From the NCBI RefSeq assembly GCF_026410085.1, contig NZ_CP112866.1:62001-126000 (forward strand): DNA of 64,000 bases, given 5' to 3'. Positions within the stretch are counted from its first letter, which is position 1. Each line of letters begins with the position of its first letter. The DNA comes from Pseudomonas quebecensis. GTDB lineage: Bacteria > Pseudomonadota > Gammaproteobacteria > Pseudomonadales > Pseudomonadaceae. This document shows positions 51,143 to 60,217 of this stretch, piece by piece. The notes beneath the pieces are model-generated. The model was not told the origin of the DNA and did no database searches. It saw nothing but the letters and a program-made list of their open reading frames with translations. A program made the position numbers and the translations under genes.

Positions 51143-51907
51143 ATGTGGGATCTCATCGAAAAGGGCCTGGAGCATAACGGCCTGATCACTGCGTTTGCCT
51201 TTGTTGGCGTGGTGATGTGGATTTCCGTGGTGCTGTCCAGGCGCTTGACCTTTGGCCGCATCCACGGCTCGGCGATTGCCATTGTGATCGGCCTGGTACT
51301 GGCCTGGGTCGGCGGCACGATTACCGGTGGCCAGAAAGGCCTGGCCGACCTGGCGCTGTTTTCTGGCATCGGCCTGATGGGCGGCGCGATGCTGCGTGAC
51401 TTCGCCATTGTCGCCACGGCGTTTGAAGTGCAGGCCACCGAAGCGCGCAAGGCCGGGATGATCGGCGTGGTTGCGCTGCTGTTGGGCACCGTCCTGCCGT
51501 TTATCGTCGGCGCGAGCATGGCCTGGGCATTTGGTTATCGCGATGCGATCAGCATGACCACCATCGGCGCGGGTGCCGTGACCTACATCGTCGGCCCGGT
51601 GACCGGCGCGGCGATTGGCGCGACATCCGATGTGATGGCGCTGTCGATTGCCACCGGCTTGATCAAGGCGATCCTGGTGATGGTCGGCACACCGGTGGCG
51701 GCGCGCTGGATGGGCTTGGACAACCCGCGCTCGGCGATGGTCTTCGGTGGCTTGGCCGGCACCGTGAGCGGCGTGACGGCAGGGCTGGCGGCGACGGACC
51801 GGCGCTTGGTGCCGTATGGCGCGTTGACAGCGACGTTCCATACCGGGCTTGGGTGCTTGCTCGGGCCTTCGCTGCTGTACTTCATTGTGCGTGGGTTGGT
51901 CGGCTGA
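51143..51907 (+). CDS. madM: Malonate transporter subunit MadM
   Basis: MadM is the large subunit of the malonate transporter. The 254-residue protein has about eight membrane helices, with GSAIAIVIGLVLAWVGGTIT and GAGAVTYIVGPVTGAAIGATSDV. Its stop codon is the first base triplet of the tandem array that follows, so the operon ends at the array. Confidence 0.94.
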   Translation: MWDLIEKGLEHNGLITAFAFVGVVMWISVVLSRRLTFGRIHGSAIAIVIGLVLAWVGGTITGGQKGLADLALFSGIGLMGGAMLRDFAIVATAFEVQATEARKAGMIGVVALLLGTVLPFIVGASMAWAFGYRDAISMTTIGAGAVTYIVGPVTGAAIGATSDVMALSIATGLIKAILVMVGTPVAARWMGLDNPRSAMVFGGLAGTVSGVTAGLAATDRRLVPYGALTATFHTGLGCLLGPSLLYFIVRGLVG

Positions 51908-53205
51908 CGATCGTTCCCACGCTCCGCGTGGGAATGCATCCTGTGACGCTCCGCGTCACGCCTTCAAGAGCGGACGCAGAGCGTCCAGGGCTGCGTTCCC
52001 ACGCGGAGCGTGGGAGCGATCATCTCAAGCCTGGCGGTTGGCATACATCCGACACACGGCCAGCAACGCCAGCAAGCTCGGATCGCGCATAACCTACCCC
52101 CGAGCTGACCCTGCTCAGCAGGGTAAAGATGACGATCGTTCCCACGCTCCGCGTGGGAATGCATCCTGTGACGCTCCGCGTCACGCCTTCAAGAGCGGAC
52201 GCAGAGCGTCCAGGGCTGCGTTACCACGCGGAGCGTGGGAACGATCATCTCAAGCCTGGCGGTTGGCATACATCCGACACTCCGCCAGCAGCGCCAGCAA
52301 GTTCGGATCGCGCATAACCTACCCCCGAGCTGACCCTGCTCAGCAGGGTAAAGATGACGATCGTTCCCACGCTCCGCGTGGGAATGCATCCTGTGACGCT
52401 CCGCGTCACGCCTTCAAGAGCGGACGCAGAGCGTCCAGGGCTGCGTTACCACGCGGAGCGTGGGAACGATCATCTCAAGCCTGGCGGTTGGCATACATCC
52501 GACACACGGCCAGCAACGCCTGCAAGTTCGGATCGCGCATAACCTACCCCCGAGCTGACCCTGCTCAGCAGGGTAAAGATGACGATCGTTCCCACGCTTC
52601 GCGTGGGAATGCATCCTGTGACGCTCCGCGTCACGCCTTCAAGAGCGGACGCAGAGCGTCCAGGGCTGCGTTACCACGCGGAGCGTGGGAACGATCATCT
52701 CAAGCCTGGCGGTTGGCATACATCCGACACTCCGCCAGCAGCGCCAGCAAGTTCGGATCGCGCATAACCTACCCCCGAGCTGACCCTGCTCAACAGGGTG
52801 AAGATGACGATCGTTCCCACGCTCCGCGTGGGAATGCATCCTGTGACGCTCCGCGTCACGCCTTCAAGAGCGGACGCAGAGCGTCCAGGGCTGCGTTACC
52901 ACGCGGAGCGTGGGAACGATCATCTCAAGTCTGGCGGTTGGCATACATCCGACACTCCGCCAGCAACGCCAGCAAGTTCGGATCGCGCATAACCTACCCC
53001 CGAGCTGACCCTGCTCAGCAGGGTAAAGATGACGATCGTTCCCACGCTCCGCGTGGGAATGCATCCTGTGACGCTCCGCGTCACGCCTTCAAGAGCGGAC
53101 GCAGAGCGTCCAGGGCTGCGTTACCACGCGGAGCGTGGGAACGATCATCTCAAGCCTGGCGGTTGGCATACATCCGACACTCGGCCAGCAGCGCCAGTAA
53201 ATTCG
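51905..53205. repeat. 225-bp tandem array with mdcR fragments
   Basis: Units begin at 51905, 52130, 52355, 52580, 52805 and 53030: five full units and one partial. Each has a GTTCCCACGC-type palindromic element (about 115 bp), a copy of the last 56-57 bp of mdcR and a copy of 47 bp from inside mdcR (genuine site 53326-53372), joined with the 120 bp between them deleted. The last unit runs into the true mdcR 3' end. Units are nearly identical. The array separates convergent madM and mdcR. It could act as terminator or barrier; no coding role is supported. Confidence 0.93.
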
Positions 53206-54064
53206 GGTCTCGCTCCTTGGCCTTCAAGAACACCACGCCAATATGCTGCTGCAACCGATACCTGGCTTGCAGCGGTATCAGCTTCACGCGGTTCTCGTAC
53301 ACCGCCGCGATCCTGCCCGGCAGCAGCGCATAACCTACCCCCGAGCTGACCATGCTCAACAGCGTGAAGATGTCATTGACCTGCATCGCCACCTTCGGCT
53401 CGAACCCCGCCTGCTTGAACACTCGGTTGCCGTCCTGGTGGGTGGCGAAGCCTTGGGTGAGGGTGATGAAGGTGGCGTCGCGCACGTCGGCCAGGTCGAT
53501 TTCCTGCTCGCGGTCGAAAGGCGAGTCGGCCGGGGTGGCGAGGAAGATATCGTCGCAGAACAGTTCGATCTGTTCGCAGTCCGGATCGTTGGCGTGTTCG
53601 TCCAGGGAGATGAGGATCGCGTCGACTTCCATGTTCTTGAGCTTATAGAGCAGGTCGAAATTGGAGCCGAGGATCAGGTCGATGTTGAGTTCGCTGCGGC
53701 GTATCTTCAGGCCCATGATCAGTTGCGGCACGGTTTTTACCGTCAGCGAATACAGCGAGCCGAGCTTGAAACGTTCGGCGGAGAAACCGGCGGCCTCCCG
53801 AGTCAGGCGCACGCTGTCGACCACATCGGCGATCAGTTTCTGTGCGCGCTCTTCGAGAACGTAGGCGCTTTCCAGCGGCGTGAGGTTGCGCCCCTCATGT
53901 TTGAACAGCGGGCAGCGCAGGGCGTTTTCCAGTGAATGAATGGCGCGGTGCACGCTGACATTGCTGGTCTGCAGCTCGGCGGCGGCGCGGGCCAGGTTGC
54001 CGGTGCGCATGAACGCCAGGAAGATTTCGAGTTTTTTGAGGGTGAATTCTTCGTCGATCAGCAT
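53150..54064 (-). CDS. mdcR: LysR-type malonate regulator MdcR
   Basis: MdcR is the LysR activator of malonate utilisation. The 304-residue protein has an N-terminal winged HTH (residues about 9-68: FLAFMRTGNLARAAAELQTSNVSVHRAIHSLE) and a substrate-binding domain. The start at 54064 gives the usual LysR length; an in-frame ATG at 54184 adds a hydrophilic extension. Its gene is convergent with madM, and its 3' end was the source of the tandem array. Confidence 0.92.
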   Translation of the reverse strand: MLIDEEFTLKKLEIFLAFMRTGNLARAAAELQTSNVSVHRAIHSLENALRCPLFKHEGRNLTPLESAYVLEERAQKLIADVVDSVRLTREAAGFSAERFKLGSLYSLTVKTVPQLIMGLKIRRSELNIDLILGSNFDLLYKLKNMEVDAILISLDEHANDPDCEQIELFCDDIFLATPADSPFDREQEIDLADVRDATFITLTQGFATHQDGNRVFKQAGFEPKVAMQVNDIFTLLSMVSSGVGYALLPGRIAAVYENRVKLIPLQARYRLQQHIGVVFLKAKERDPNLLALLAECRMYANRQA

Positions 54065-54207
54065 GGCCGTGGCTCTGGTTCGCGTGGGGTCGATTGTGCC
54101 CGCAAAAGCGCTCGGCGTCCTCGGAACGTCACACGGCACTTGCACTCTGATGCGCAAGGCCGGAGGCTTGCGGCCAGTCGTCAACGGTTACGGGAGGTCA
54201 GTGATTC

Positions 54208-54825: not shown

Positions 54826-54843
54826 CAGCCGACTCGATCAAAA

Positions 54844-54873
54844 AGTGGGAGGGTGCTTGTCGCACCGTCCCAC
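54844..54873. repeat. REP-like hairpin
   Basis: GTGGGAGGGTGCTTGTCGC with CACCGTCCCACC is a degenerate REP between the hemolysin III gene and the AT-rich cluster. It marks the left edge of the cluster. Confidence 0.7.
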
Positions 54874-54931
54874 CCCGATGGCGGTGGGCCAGTGACGAAT
54901 AGGTTGGCTGACGCTGGTTTACATTGAAAAT

Positions 54932-56188
54932 TTACTTTTCTTTCAGCTGTTTGTAAGTAGTAGAAAAGCAGTAAGCTCCCATGAGCATTATTAAACCATA
55001 GCTTAGCCCATTCATTATTTTCTCTGGAGAAAAGAAAAGGCTGCTTACCATAACTGTAAATATAACCGCAATTGTCGTTACGAGTTCGGTGATTAGAAAG
55101 AAAGAGAATATTTCCTGTCTACATGCACGATCTAGAACTTCATTTGATGTAACTCTGGTCATTATGATTCCAATCCCAGCCCCAAAAAAACAGAAGGCCG
55201 AAAGAATCAGGAAGTATGAAGTGTTTGTGTTGTCAATGGCCGTTGGCAGGGATATGGCAACGGTTATGAAAAAGCAAAAAAATGAAAATGTTGAGCCGGA
55301 TTTTTTGAGTGTCGGCTGGGATAGTCCCACGACTCCGAGAACCGTAGACGCCAAAAAAACTACAAAGGCTGTTAGTGAGCTTCCTAGCCAAGATAAACCT
55401 TCAGGTATGTCTGTCGAGGGTTTGTGTCGATATAATAAGCCAATTGCGTACATGAGGATCAACATCTCAAAAGTATTGCCTGCTACGTATCCCAAAAACT
55501 GGCTAGGGTATTTAGAGATGACTTTAAAGTGATGAATATAATAAAGGCGGGTTCGGTGCTTTGAGCTGTTCTTTTTAGTGAGAACTGGCTTGAGATCATG
55601 GTAGGAGACGTAAGTCTGAATGACTCGGCATAGTAATATTGGCAACATCGTCACTAGCATGGCGTACAGGTAGTATCCGCTACTCATCATGAGTGATGCT
55701 ATCAGTAATAGAGTTAATGGAGTCCCTATGCGTATGTGCAGGTGTTTTTTAAAAGCTCCCACGTAATCTGCGCTATGTCCAGTAAGGTGCAGGTGGAGGT
55801 CGTTGTAGGCCGGCCTGAAAGATGATCGCAGGCAGCCAGTGCCTATTGAGTCGAAGGTGAATGAAATAAGTATCAAGCACCAACTAATATGCCAGTAGTC
55901 GAGTAGCGCTAAATAAAATCCGGTGGTTAAAAAAATAGCGCATGCAAACTTGAATATGAACCCGTAAATTGTTGTGTATGCCGTACCAAAACGGTTTGCA
56001 AACGAATGCCCAACGTAAAACTCAATAACCAGAGAAATTAGCAGCTGTGTAATGAGCGAGAACTCTAAGGAAAAACTCCCAAGCTTAGGGTTGGTTGCTA
56101 TCAGAGCCAGTTCTAGTATCGTTACACCCATCGCGATGCCACCATATAGTGCGTCTGAACGGGAGACAATATTGGTGGCGCTTTTCAT
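54932..56188 (-). CDS. Membrane transporter of MFS type (cluster exporter)
   Basis: This 418-residue protein has about 12 hydrophobic helices and short loops, with charged residues between helices 2-3 and in the central cytoplasmic loop (LKPVLTKKNSSKHRTRLYYI). It looks like a major-facilitator-type carrier, but I see no certain subfamily signature. It is AT-rich like the genes upstream, overlaps the 177-residue gene by 4 bp, and ends the minus-strand cluster, so export of the peptide product is the likely role. Uncertain: importer or resistance pump. Confidence 0.65.
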   Translation of the reverse strand: MKSATNIVSRSDALYGGIAMGVTILELALIATNPKLGSFSLEFSLITQLLISLVIEFYVGHSFANRFGTAYTTIYGFIFKFACAIFLTTGFYLALLDYWHISWCLILISFTFDSIGTGCLRSSFRPAYNDLHLHLTGHSADYVGAFKKHLHIRIGTPLTLLLIASLMMSSGYYLYAMLVTMLPILLCRVIQTYVSYHDLKPVLTKKNSSKHRTRLYYIHHFKVISKYPSQFLGYVAGNTFEMLILMYAIGLLYRHKPSTDIPEGLSWLGSSLTAFVVFLASTVLGVVGLSQPTLKKSGSTFSFFCFFITVAISLPTAIDNTNTSYFLILSAFCFFGAGIGIIMTRVTSNEVLDRACRQEIFSFFLITELVTTIAVIFTVMVSSLFFSPEKIMNGLSYGLIMLMGAYCFSTTYKQLKEK

Positions 56189-56718
56189 AGGCTGACCCTG
56201 AAAGTTTTGCCGGGTTCAAGTACTAGATTTTTATAAAAGATCGACGGGGCATGAGCTCTACCATAAAACATTAGTGTCGTGTAAATGGAGTCCAAGTCGA
56301 AAGGAACTAAAGTGAGAGAACGTCCTGCGGGCGGGGTAGAGACATATTTGTATTGTGTGTCTCTTCTATTTCGAAAATCTTCGTAAAGCAGTAGTTCGTA
56401 ATCGATAGGGGGGAATTGAGTTTTTATCTTCTGTAGAAAAATTTCACACGCCGCGGCGTTTAAATTTTTGTAGATTTTCGAGGTTTTATCAAAACGATCA
56501 AATACGGCGATTAAAACTTCCTCTCCATGAATTGATTCTAGATACCTGATCGTATAGGGCCATCTTCTACTGATGTGCCTAGAGATGTCTAAATACCTTC
56601 TGATGCTTTCAAACGCGAAGTGTTTTTCTTCCGAGGATGTTGGAGTTGATAGCAAGTTATTAGGTTCATATATTTTTGAGAAAAATATAGTTGTTGAGAT
56701 ATGGCAGGATTTTTTCAT
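56185..56718 (-). CDS. Unknown protein next to the DUF692-like gene
   Basis: I do not recognise this 177-residue protein. It has a basic, aromatic middle (RRYLDISRHISRRWPYTIRY, LLYEDFRNRRDTQYKYV) and a C-terminal STPPAGRSLTLVPFDLDSIY stretch. No membrane segment or signal. It overlaps the start of the transporter gene and the end of the TIM-barrel gene by 4 bp each, so all three are translationally coupled. DUF692 oxidases such as MbnB and TglH need a small partner (MbnC, TglI) encoded next to them; this protein has a similar place and size, but homology is not evident. Confidence 0.6.
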   Translation of the reverse strand: MKKSCHISTTIFFSKIYEPNNLLSTPTSSEEKHFAFESIRRYLDISRHISRRWPYTIRYLESIHGEEVLIAVFDRFDKTSKIYKNLNAAACEIFLQKIKTQFPPIDYELLLYEDFRNRRDTQYKYVSTPPAGRSLTLVPFDLDSIYTTLMFYGRAHAPSIFYKNLVLEPGKTFRVSL

Positions 56719-57563
56719 TTTTTATTCGCTTCTATGAGCGCCTTTTTTATGAGAATTATGTTGCTGTTTTCAATATCTAGCGGAGCTCCCTCCATTTCCA
56801 ACAAAATGTTGTGCGTTTTTAGGCTTTTTATTACCGCGCTTTTAAATGTTTCGGTTAGTTCGTTTTTGAAGTGGTCTGAATGTTGGTCAAGCCAGACGGG
56901 AATACCATTCCATAGCCAAGACTTCACTCCTGAGATGTGTAGCGTCTTAATTAGATTCCAAATTTCGTGGGCAGCGCAGGGCAAATCGAACGCTAGACCT
57001 TTAGTTTTACAGTAGCCAAGATAGTGCCCAATATCAAACGCCATCATGCATTCAGAGCGCCTGCACAGCTCTAGGTAAAACTCCCAAAATTCTATGTTTC
57101 CAAATTCGCTATAGATTGGTGGGTTTTCCAAAACTACAGGTATTTCAAAGTAGTCATTTATGAATCTGGCATTGTCAGCAGTGGTTTTTAATGTTTCTTT
57201 ATTCATAGGCGGATTGGTTTGGTGAGCGCCCAAAAATAGATTGCCATTCCTCCAAATTCCGATGTCTTCCTCGATATAAATTATAGGAAGTGTGGCTAGC
57301 GCCTCCTTCAGGTTTTTTAAGTCTGCCAAGTCAGTAACCCCTGAGAAATTGATGTCTACGGGGTGTGCGGACATCGTAAAGTCTGCGGATAGGCATATAT
57401 CAGTTAATGAGCTTTCTATTTTATCCCAAGGGCGTATACCCAAACTAAAGTGGCGAATCGGTGTTTGATTATATATATGGTTGTTGTCAGTGCGATGCTG
57501 AACGAATTTTTTTAGTTTCTCTACGTCGCCGCTAATGCCTATGCGAATTGAGCGGTTGTTCAT
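56715..57563 (-). CDS. TIM-barrel protein with DUF692-like metal ligands
   Basis: This 282-residue protein has motifs in the order seen in DUF692 (MbnB/TglH) iron enzymes and the xylose-isomerase-like barrel: SAHPVDINFSG (His), GAHQTN (His), VVLENPP (Glu), MAFDIGHYLGY (Asp and His), KTLHISGV (His) and ILLEMEG (Glu). That spacing suggests two or three metal ions. DUF692 enzymes oxidise or remove atoms from peptide residues during RiPP maturation. Identity is by motif pattern only; a sugar isomerase/epimerase-like role is the alternative. It lies 22 bp after the radical SAM gene. Confidence 0.6.
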   Translation of the reverse strand: MNNRSIRIGISGDVEKLKKFVQHRTDNNHIYNQTPIRHFSLGIRPWDKIESSLTDICLSADFTMSAHPVDINFSGVTDLADLKNLKEALATLPIIYIEEDIGIWRNGNLFLGAHQTNPPMNKETLKTTADNARFINDYFEIPVVLENPPIYSEFGNIEFWEFYLELCRRSECMMAFDIGHYLGYCKTKGLAFDLPCAAHEIWNLIKTLHISGVKSWLWNGIPVWLDQHSDHFKNELTETFKSAVIKSLKTHNILLEMEGAPLDIENSNIILIKKALIEANKK

Positions 57564-57585
57564 AAATCACCCGTTTGAATGTTGG

Positions 57586-59322
57586 TTATAAGGATCTACC
57601 TATAAGTTCGCCTCTCCTACCTCCTGAACCAGTTGTCGGTGTTTCTAGGATTTTGAGTTTGGGCGCGTTGACCGGTTTGTCATCGGCGATAGCTTTGTTG
57701 ATTGTTGCCACATAGTTGATAAAGAATGGCTCGCGGTTAATTTCAGTTGTTTTATCCGTGTTGTGGCAAAGCCACCATAAGACTTTGAATGGCATATGCT
57801 TTAAGTGAATATTTAGCAAGGAGTGGTAGGCTGTCTCTGTAAGCGACGTATGTGTCCCAATTTTTTCAATGTTTGATTCGATTGCTTGTTCGAGTTGATT
57901 TAGTAGTGGGATTGCAAAGTTGTCTATATAGGCGGTATATATGTTATATACTTCGTGATTTTCAATAAATTCTCTGCTGTTTGGTAGCTGTGTCAGGTCA
58001 AGCTTTGTGCCTGTCTTTCTCTCCAGATTTTTTCTTACGGGGGTTCCTGGATACAACATCATAATATTGAAATAGTGATCTAAAGATTCGTGTTCTGTAA
58101 GCCCGGATTTTACCAAAAAAACTAAGTTTTCAATGATTTCTCTTTTTTGTTGGTCGTGATAAAACATTATAAAGTCAAGTCCGACATCGATCTTGTTGTT
58201 TTGTAGGGCTCTTACGGCATCAATATTGTTTTGCACGGTGACCCTTTTGTTCATGTAGTCTAGTTGCGACTGTGAGCCAGACTCGATGCCCATCTCGACA
58301 AGCCTTAGTCCCTGACTCACTAGTTTTGGTAGTTCGGATTGTAACTTTAGAAGGTAGCCTACCGTGGAGGAACTGCTCCATGTGACCCGGCCGTTAAATA
58401 AGTTGTACAGTTTCTCTGAGAATTCCAGCACCCTATCTTTACGAACGAAAAAATTCGCATCCATCATGTATATGTGTTCGAACGAGTAGTGCGTATAGGC
58501 TTCCGCTATCCAGCTAACAAGTGTCGTGGCTTCGATGGCGCGCCATTTTGGCCCCTCCTTGTCTGCTGCGACAATAGCGCAAAAAGAGCATGCTAATGGG
58601 CAGCCTCGACTGCTTGTCAATGCTATGGCTTTTCTCTGTTTAGAGTCTTTCCTATCTGTGAAATAAAGTTTTTGTAAGCGTTCCGAAGAGTATTCAAGGA
58701 GCGGGTTCTCCCAGTCCGCTGTGGGGAGTTGTATCTTTTCTATATAGGACTCTTTCAGCTTTCCAGATGTCGTAAGCCACACTGCGTTTGGTATTCTATT
58801 GAAGTGATTTTTATAAATGTGTTTTTTTGATTTTGTTTTGCGTGGGAACTGAGTGTGAGTATTATTAAATACGTCTATGAGTTTAGCAGTTGAATGCTCA
58901 CCCTCGCCACGTATCGCTAACTCAAAGGTCCTGTTACTCGCACGCAGAAAATCTTCCGCTGCTAGGCTTATATGTGGGCCGCCACAAAAAATGAATGTTC
59001 CGGGCAAGGCATTTTTTATTGTTTTTCCCCATGTTATCGCTGCCTGCACATGACTGCTATATATTGAGATCCCTATAAAGTGTGGTGCCCAGTTGATTAA
59101 ATCGGCTAGCTCGTCAATATCTGATGTGTATAGGTCGGAATAGTCAAAGATTTTACAAGTTGTGTGCTCGGAATTTTTTCTTACATAAGCTGAAATGTTC
59201 TGTAGGCCAAGCGGCATCACTTTTTGTGGGCCTTCGCCGTAGGGTAGAGCGACTAATGCGAGTCGACAGAGTTCGACAGGCTCACTCGTGCAAGGCGCGG
59301 AAAAGTTGTGAGCTTTTTTCAT
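57586..59322 (-). CDS. B12-binding radical SAM enzyme
   Basis: This 578-residue protein has an N-terminal cobalamin-binding domain (about residues 60-180: IGISIYSSHVQAA, FIFCGGPHISLAAEDF, LAIRGEGEHS). A radical SAM domain follows, with CPLACSFC (CxxxCxxC, about residue 240) and the later MDANFF and LRLVEMGIESGSQ motifs. The C-terminal part (about residues 460-578) is unassigned. Enzymes of this class often methylate unactivated carbons, also in RiPP maturation. I start it at 59322 because CGAGGAG lies 5-6 bases upstream; an in-frame ATG lies 18 bp before. It overlaps the 84-residue gene. Confidence 0.85.
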   Translation of the reverse strand: MKKAHNFSAPCTSEPVELCRLALVALPYGEGPQKVMPLGLQNISAYVRKNSEHTTCKIFDYSDLYTSDIDELADLINWAPHFIGISIYSSHVQAAITWGKTIKNALPGTFIFCGGPHISLAAEDFLRASNRTFELAIRGEGEHSTAKLIDVFNNTHTQFPRKTKSKKHIYKNHFNRIPNAVWLTTSGKLKESYIEKIQLPTADWENPLLEYSSERLQKLYFTDRKDSKQRKAIALTSSRGCPLACSFCAIVAADKEGPKWRAIEATTLVSWIAEAYTHYSFEHIYMMDANFFVRKDRVLEFSEKLYNLFNGRVTWSSSSTVGYLLKLQSELPKLVSQGLRLVEMGIESGSQSQLDYMNKRVTVQNNIDAVRALQNNKIDVGLDFIMFYHDQQKREIIENLVFLVKSGLTEHESLDHYFNIMMLYPGTPVRKNLERKTGTKLDLTQLPNSREFIENHEVYNIYTAYIDNFAIPLLNQLEQAIESNIEKIGTHTSLTETAYHSLLNIHLKHMPFKVLWWLCHNTDKTTEINREPFFINYVATINKAIADDKPVNAPKLKILETPTTGSGGRRGELIGRSL

Positions 59323-59536
59323 AAGAACTCCTCGCTTCACTGGCTTTAGCCAGGCAAAAAAAATCTGGATAGCGCTCCGCTATGAGCGCAGATTTCTCGT
59401 CAGACTCTAGTGCATCAATAAATTTATTTTTCGATATTTTTAGAAGGTGCGTCCCGTTATGGAAGAAGCAATATCCTAGTTCTGTTAGGCAGACTACTCC
59501 GATCTTCGTTTTTATTCTCATGCGGCGTTGATCCAT
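59282..59536 (-). CDS. Small unknown protein between hairpin and radical SAM gene
   Basis: This 84-residue protein has an N-terminal beta-like half (KIGVVCLTELGYCFFHNGTHLLKIS, two or three strands) and a helical C-terminal half. Size and position (before a radical SAM gene, after the peptide gene) fit a peptide-binding RRE or chaperone-type protein, but I see no proven match. It overlaps the next gene by 41 bp. Alternative: an unrelated small regulator. Confidence 0.55.
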   Translation of the reverse strand: MDQRRMRIKTKIGVVCLTELGYCFFHNGTHLLKISKNKFIDALESDEKSALIAERYPDFFCLAKASEARSSYEKSSQLFRALHE

Positions 59537-59546
59537 CCGCTCTCAG

Positions 59547-59577
59547 TAATTGGACACTGTTTTACAGTGTCCAATTA
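59547..59577 (-). terminator. Perfect hairpin between peptide gene and enzyme genes
   Basis: The 14-bp arms (TAATTGGACACTGT and its exact complement) with a 3-nt loop lie 18 bp after the peptide stop and 10 bp before the 84-residue gene. On the minus strand it lacks a good U tract, so it may be a partial terminator or a 3'-end stabiliser that raises peptide mRNA over enzyme mRNA, as in other peptide operons. Confidence 0.7.
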
Positions 59578-59595
59578 GTAGCTAGTAGTACTTCA

Positions 59596-59715
59596 TTAGA
59601 ATTCGGGTGCCGTTTTTCCAGCAACCATGTCGTAACTTCCATCTGGTACCGGAGTTAAGGTCTCGACATCAGAGGCCAGTTCATCCAGATAGTCATCGTC
59701 ATTTTCGTCTGCCAT
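59596..59715 (-). CDS. Candidate RiPP precursor peptide (39 residues)
   Basis: The peptide begins MADENDDDYLDELASDVETL, with Asp/Glu-rich leader-like character, and ends in a short GSYDMVAGKTAPEF tail. It has no Cys, His, Trp or Arg. AAGGAG lies 7 bases before the ATG, a strong ribosome binding site, which decides the start over an in-frame ATG 69 bp upstream. A sigma-70-like promoter lies ~90 bp upstream. The role is inferred from size, leader-like composition and place in front of a radical SAM and a DUF692-like enzyme. Confidence 0.65.
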   Translation of the reverse strand: MADENDDDYLDELASDVETLTPVPDGSYDMVAGKTAPEF

Positions 59716-59802
59716 GATATTGCTCCTTTTTGTTTTTGATTTCAGCGTATTTGCAGTCGGATTAAGCGTCTTGCATGCCAGCAAGAATCGTGGCTGCTCT
59801 TA

Positions 59803-59832
59803 TATAAAAGTCCCAGAGATTCTTTAAGTCAA
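59803..59832 (-). promoter_or_regulatory. Candidate sigma-70 promoter of the peptide cluster
   Basis: On the minus strand TTGACT (59827-59832) and TTTATA (59803-59808) are spaced by 18 nt, a good housekeeping promoter. It points at the peptide gene start 88 bp downstream. Confidence 0.55.
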
Positions 59833-60217
59833 ATAGAAAATGAAATTTCAGAAATTTCCTAAGATTACTGTTTGCTTGTAAGAAAAGTCCCGCTTTGAAG
59901 GATGGCTCCTACGAGTATGTAGGATGAAGAGGCCATGGAGGCAATCGAATCGTTTGTGGTGTGCTTGTTTATTTTTTGGAATTATGGATTAACGGCTGAC
60001 TCGTTACAGCAAAACTCTATTTTCGAAATTTCAAGACTTTTTAAGCAGTTATATCGTGCGAATGTAATCCGATTCCTATCTCTTGGTCTAAAAAACAGTC
60101 CTCTGAGCTGTTTCTGCGATCGAGACTCAGATTCCAATTTATGCATTAAGTAAGTGCTTTAACTGAGATAAACATATGGAGTAGGGCTTGCCCTACTACA
60201 TTGGATCTTCTGTGTTC
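59833..60217. other. Intergenic region without a clear gene
   Basis: About 385 bp of AT-rich sequence between the peptide-cluster promoter and the LysR gene. A 72-codon open stretch at 59935 has no convincing family or coding pattern. A REP half-like palindrome (GTAGGGCTTGCCCTAC) lies near 60182-60197. Confidence 0.6.

Follow-up and report, generated by a model that had tools for sequence, protein, structure and literature searches.

What is made by a compact group of genes at positions 54932-59832 of a 64,000-nucleotide stretch of the Pseudomonas quebecensis chromosome (contig NZ_CP112866.1, positions 62,001 to 126,000; hereafter the window), and does the group, as a first-pass annotation proposed, represent a new cluster for a ribosomally synthesised and post-translationally modified peptide (RiPP)? 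The results described below indicate that the locus is very probably a horizontally acquired RiPP operon. All six genes and the RNA hairpin of that annotation were recovered where it had placed them, on the minus strand. In order of transcription these are a gene for a 39-residue precursor peptide, the hairpin, and genes for a probable stand-alone RiPP recognition element (RRE)-like protein, a cobalamin (B12)-binding radical S-adenosylmethionine (SAM) enzyme, a multinuclear non-heme iron-dependent oxidative enzyme (MNIO, formerly DUF692), a probable MNIO partner protein and a polytopic membrane protein that is probably an exporter. The close spacing (three overlaps, of 41, 4 and 4 nt, and one gap of 22 nt) was also as claimed, and the precursor gene is separated from the next gene by 59 nt, or by 74 nt if the latter has the shorter of its two starts.

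The precursor gene (59596-59715), which carries the Shine-Dalgarno-like sequence AAGGAG, encodes a peptide of 39 residues with no Cys, a net charge of -11 and the end Y-DMVA-GKTAPEF. Searches returned seven homologous loci (L004-L010), of which five have the intact six-gene order, namely those of Pseudomonas sp. PDM05 (L006), P. fluorescens PS858 (L005), P. folii (L008), Photorhabdus namnaonensis (L007) and Ph. akhurstii (L009). The peptide gene was kept beside the MNIO gene in all six loci whose MNIO shares at least about 42% identity with that of the window (L004-L009), five of which hold all of the maturation genes, whereas a peptide match was absent from the seventh (L010), the MNIO of which is only 26% identical. 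Alignment of the window peptide with those of L005-L009 (six sequences, the window and L006 being identical) bore out the annotation of a Cys-free precursor; thus, none of the six contains Cys, net charges range from -8 to -11 and all end in GKTAPEF. Besides this motif, only Tyr28 is invariant among the last 12 residues, with E12, A14 and V23 invariant further upstream, and Tyr28 and Phe39, which are 11 positions apart, are the only invariant aromatic residues. Between the window and L005, differences over 32 codons numbered 6, 2 and 16 at positions one, two and three, and the last 12 codons contained 5 synonymous and 0 non-synonymous changes; third-position bias was weaker in comparisons with L007, L008 and L009, which are more distant (9, 8 and 23 for L007). 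Judged from these codon changes, the precursor gene is real and under purifying selection. The pattern GKTAPEF-stop was also matched by five IMG/VR contigs, none with a precursor-like upstream frame on inspection by eye, and tblastn of the six proteins was empty; these matches were attributed to chance or to coding sequence unrelated to the precursor. Upstream of the precursor gene, at 59800-59865 on the minus strand, a block (TAGGAAATTTC.GAA.TTT ... TTGACT ... CTTTTATA) was noted that by eye looks common to L005; it is possibly an operator and promoter and was not listed by the promoter scan.

The cluster lies in an island (54826-60217) between two convergent native genes, presumably those of a hemolysin-III-like protein and a LysR-type regulator. 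Measured in 1-kb steps, GC content was 0.41-0.43 in the five steps between 55 and 60 kb and 0.53-0.67 elsewhere in the window, the island as a whole being 41-43% GC against about 62% around it. In a search of 28 relatives besides the genome of origin, both flanking genes were strongly matched (E < 1e-100) in seven, and the radical SAM gene was absent from all seven. Flank matches in the five relatives that were aligned (G004, G005, G010, G016 and G017; loci L016, L017, L018, L020, L022, L023, L024 and L026) were 25 to 303 bp apart, compared with about 5.4 kb in the window, and those in G002 were 106 bp apart by coordinates (L025, left out of the alignment). The flanks of G007 were on different contigs, and G006 (L019), which had no good right flank, was also left out. 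The island is an insertion because the aligned relatives show the empty site, and the low GC together with these empty sites bore out the AT-rich island of the first-pass annotation. At the level of sequence, the 5.4-kb island is foreign, horizontally acquired DNA in a Pseudomonas chromosome. Among 398 genomes of the genus (E <= 1e-30), 369 of the class and 293 of the order (E <= 1e-60 for both; the samples overlap), the radical SAM gene turned up once per sample, each time in the genome of the window. Carriage by phage or plasmid was rejected, as none of the 33 IMG/VR stretches that matched MNIO patterns encoded a relative and the radical SAM protein had no match at E 1e-20 in 72,556 plasmids; the phage collection was not searched.

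The TIM barrel that had been described as DUF692-like (56715-57563, 282 residues) matched PF05114 at 51.6 bits (cut-off 25), and residues H67, D100, E146, D177, H180, H209, D226, H228 and E256 were invariant in all 24 aligned sequences (the window and 23 of 32 homologue hits). These correspond, by order and spacing rather than by structural alignment, to the nine iron ligands that an AlphaFold 3 model had indicated for PbsC (PMC12257519). An ordinary sugar isomerase was rejected on the basis of the PF05114 match and the conserved ligands. Of the outcomes that the annotation had named as refuting its proposal, neither a loss of the small peptide from homologous loci (kept in L004-L009) nor an ordinary isomerase was observed. 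Scores against equivalog families were far below cut-off for ApyH (42.5 of 400 bits), BufB (43.2 of 310 bits) and, likewise, HvfB.

The radical SAM enzyme (57586-59322, 578 residues) matched PF02310 (43.3 bits, cut-off 32.1) and PF04055 (58.9 bits, cut-off 29.5), contains the CxxxCxxC motif as CPLACSFC and is predicted to bind cobalamin. Its profile matched parts of the solved structures of OxsB, TokK and the apramycin oxidoreductase 6fd2, while scores for all 19 listed NCBIfam families fell below cut-off (ApyD, 47.1 of 750 bits). A C-terminal tail, TxGxGGRxGE, conserved beyond a variable linker, was noted at 57586-57650. The start at ATG 59322 is preceded by GAGGAG, the alternative being a GTG at 59340 (584 residues). 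The preceding gene encodes 79 residues (59282-59521), or 84 if the ATG at 59536 is used (59282-59536), and among 15 aligned homologues, 10 begin where the shorter form does. The starts of both genes probably need correction, to 59521 and to ATG 59322, respectively. The predicted model of the 84-residue form was most like RREs, although weakly and with VIA-align rows that cover mainly residues 1-62, which suggests that the protein may be a separate RRE; Pfam DUF6371 was rejected for it at 18.7 bits (cut-off 27.7).

Directly 3' of the MNIO gene in each of L004-L009 is the gene for the 177-residue protein (56185-56718), which is predicted to consist of a helical domain and a truncated RRE-like part. 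Its model was most like the MNIO partner proteins NGO1945 and TglHI complex (the chain taken as TglI), and it has no Pfam match and no DUF2063 signature, which fits PME-type 2 as defined in PMC12452194; the predicted fold thus makes a role as MNIO partner probable. The 418-residue membrane protein (54932-56188), encoded 3' of the partner gene in the same six loci, had no Pfam match over cut-off and no NCBIfam or PDB match. With 11 hydropathy peaks in the window and 12, 9 and 12 in three homologues, the 12 helices that the annotation gave for this transporter are plausible.

The perfect hairpin between the precursor gene and the next gene was confirmed (59547-59577, minus strand), with 14-nt arms at 59547-59560 and 59564-59577 and a loop of 3. 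Folding of the window interval gave z = -4.7, with 0 of 200 shuffles equally stable. Values for L005, L006, L007, L008 and L009 were -3.9, -4.6, -2.9, -2.9 and -2.9, with 1, 0, 3, 1 and 3 equally stable shuffles, respectively, L007 and L009 being identical in this interval. Counterparts were thus present in all four lineages (the window, L005, L007/L009 and L008), and since the stems look unrelated by eye, position and structure have been kept rather than sequence. The hairpin was not among the hits of the terminator scan. The position of the peptide gene, set apart from the enzyme genes behind this strong hairpin, would suit a regulator or a chance open reading frame (ORF), with the two enzymes acting on a small molecule or another protein. 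Such an arrangement is most improbable, however, given the presence of the peptide gene beside that of the MNIO in six of six loci, the selection on its sequence and the predicted leader-binding-like folds that adjoin both enzymes.

With the peptide as the likely substrate, the locus was compared with known systems as described in sections of PMC12257519, PMC12707348, PMC10635010, PMC12452194, PMC12636437, PMC13174530, PMC12710340, PMC3621798 and PMC11002830. The annotation knew of no described class with this combination of enzymes and a Cys-free 39-residue precursor. With regard to the enzymes this was not supported, as a B12 radical SAM enzyme and an MNIO occur together in aminopyruvatide (PMC10635010) and in biphenomycin-type clusters (PMC12257519, PMC12707348); of the proposed new RiPP cluster, the Cys-free precursor and the acquired island remain, whereas the enzyme combination is one already described.

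In the biphenomycin (pbs and bip) clusters, a short precursor (Sg_BipA, 41 residues) is followed by the B12 radical SAM enzyme, the MNIO and its partner (PMC12257519, PMC12707348), which is the order found here, and likeness extends to an exporter gene of the major facilitator superfamily type and the nine MNIO metal ligands. Given this likeness and the presence of exactly two invariant aromatic residues, the locus might be a divergent cluster of the same type, in which the MNIO ortho-hydroxylates Phe and the B12 radical SAM enzyme forms a C-C bond between the rings of Tyr28 and Phe39. We regard this as unlikely, since these two residues are 11 positions apart rather than 2 and the motifs of biphenomycin precursors (FHAFRF, FHTFMF or YHxYxY) are absent from the six aligned precursors, in which the GKTAPEF end is conserved instead. 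Moreover, the arginase (FHAFRF subgroup), ornithine hydroxylase and TldD-type protease of those pathways are not among the six genes (the remainder of the genome was not searched for arginase), an extra RRE-like gene is present here, and the hosts of biphenomycin clusters are mainly Actinomycetota and Bacillota as opposed to Pseudomonas and Photorhabdus. Our view is that the cluster has the same chassis as that of biphenomycin but is not to be filed as a member.

The aminopyruvatide (apy) cluster from Burkholderia likewise encodes a B12 radical SAM enzyme, an MNIO and a partner, and both the MNIO partner and the B12 radical SAM enzyme carry fused RREs (PMC10635010; PMC11002830). The latter fusion fits the RRE-like gene that overlaps the radical SAM gene here, so that here too both enzymes may be served by RREs. 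In contrast with the present cluster, that of aminopyruvatide includes P450 and methyltransferase genes and a precursor with a C-terminal Asp and a central Cys motif, whereas the precursor here ends in Phe and lacks Cys; the MNIO and radical SAM enzyme here also score far under the cut-offs for ApyH and ApyD given above.

Resemblance to the 3-thiaglutamate (pearlin) system was noted in the predicted fold of the partner. By analogy, the peptide might be a re-usable scaffold to which a tRNA-dependent ligase encoded elsewhere adds an amino acid at the C-terminal Phe, the added residue then being modified and released as a small molecule. A conserved C-terminus and the absence of Cys would suit a scaffold, although the lack of Cys also distinguishes this peptide from the pearlin system. 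No peptide aminoacyl-tRNA ligase gene is found among the six cluster genes, and PF04738, which we take to be a marker of such ligases, had no match in the genome of the window, a weak point in that 14 control genomes were equally silent. We consider the scaffold explanation very unlikely.

Other MNIO systems were compared as well. Bufferin precursors contain Cys, unlike that of the window, and the BufB score was low as noted above. The methanobactin-like group V operon of Photorhabdus luminescens (PMC3621798) is also a DUF692-family RiPP cluster with a gene between precursor and MNIO, but it has an MbnA-like precursor and an exporter of the multidrug and toxic compound extrusion (MATE) type, no radical SAM gene is described for it in the passages compared, where that term appears solely among the references, and it is a different MNIO system. 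The pfl/pos clusters (PMC12636437) are MNIO RiPP clusters of Pseudomonas with an MNIO-nitroreductase fusion, a HEXXH enzyme and a precursor with a Gln run and an ARMD end, none of which was seen here.

Characterised MNIO reactions mostly use Cys, the exceptions named in the sections covered being Asn, Asp, Phe and homocitrulline. In the MNIO landscape of PMC12452194, the systematic precursor sets consist of Cys-containing proteins encoded before the MNIO gene, small MNIO groups having also been inspected by hand; a Cys-free precursor encoded two genes further upstream, as in the window, would therefore not be captured by those systematic collections. No description of this precursor family or of this exact gene set was found in the literature, most subscription journals being outside the search, and none of this cluster was found in the literature on MNIO or DUF692 proteins in Photorhabdus or on the precursor motif. 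As neither the precursor motifs nor the typical tailoring genes of the biphenomycin and aminopyruvatide pathways are present, we rate the locus as a new RiPP family that makes use of a chassis already known.

We infer the leader binding, the kind and order of the two modifications, the protease, the export and the role of the hairpin as follows. The leader (around LDELASDVE) would be recognised by the RRE-like protein as well as by the RRE-like part of the partner, and the MNIO-partner pair would oxidise one residue of the conserved Y...GKTAPEF segment. By analogy with the action of PbsC on Phe, hydroxylation of the C-terminal Phe is the single most likely outcome, although in itself a doubtful one. 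The B12 radical SAM enzyme would C-methylate the core (for example at the conserved Tyr, as ApyD does on Tyr) or join two side chains, after which a housekeeping protease would cut off the leader and the product of the last gene would export the result. The hairpin, through attenuation or stabilisation of the 3' end of the precursor mRNA, would hold that mRNA above the level of the enzyme mRNA. Since the core is nearly invariant across Pseudomonas and Photorhabdus, the cluster may direct the synthesis of a single product that hardly varies, as opposed to a range of different antibiotics, a reading held with somewhat less than even confidence. With only four maturation proteins, a likely substrate encoded beside them and a nearly invariant core, the cluster is compact enough for both of its metalloenzyme reactions to be tested directly in E. 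coli.

Among the intact copies, all six genes agreed in placing L006 nearest the window, followed by L005, with L007, L008 and L009 further away. The PS858 copy (L005) occupies the same neighbourhood, but its junction differs, the cluster being flanked there by homologues of the gene at 51143-51907 and of the LysR-type gene at 53150-54184; therefore, the region acquired or moved the cluster more than once. About five tandem copies of a unit of about 225 bp were noted at 51905-53150, adjoining a LysR-type gene, and this unit was also matched at the edge of L004; the neighbourhood hosts the cluster at two junctions in two strains. The P. lurida copy (L004) is 99.3-99.4% identical to the window in DNA, yet broken. 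A deletion of about 2.1 kb (L004:7840-10479 region) has taken out the genes for the 84-residue protein and the radical SAM enzyme together with the N-terminal 51 residues of the MNIO, the remnant of which has a stop codon and a change at one invariant, non-ligand Glu. A same-species genome (G040, L013) shows equal deletion end points and may belong to the strain from which L004 comes. In both decaying copies the peptide, the 177-residue gene and the transporter are still 99.8-100% identical.

The locus in a metagenome-assembled genome of Deltaproteobacteria (L010) was not counted as a cluster copy, since the other five cluster proteins had no match there at E < 0.01. At L010:2257-3752, the ORF behind the MNIO resembles the 177-residue partner by eye, and neighbouring ORFs look cupin-like, also by eye; the MNIO and the following ORF may represent an older form related to the MNIO-partner pair. 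A second, distant MNIO-like match (29% identity, E 9.6e-7) was noted in the genome of P. quebecensis itself, outside the window, at G000:C1:5359567-5359965 (L002).

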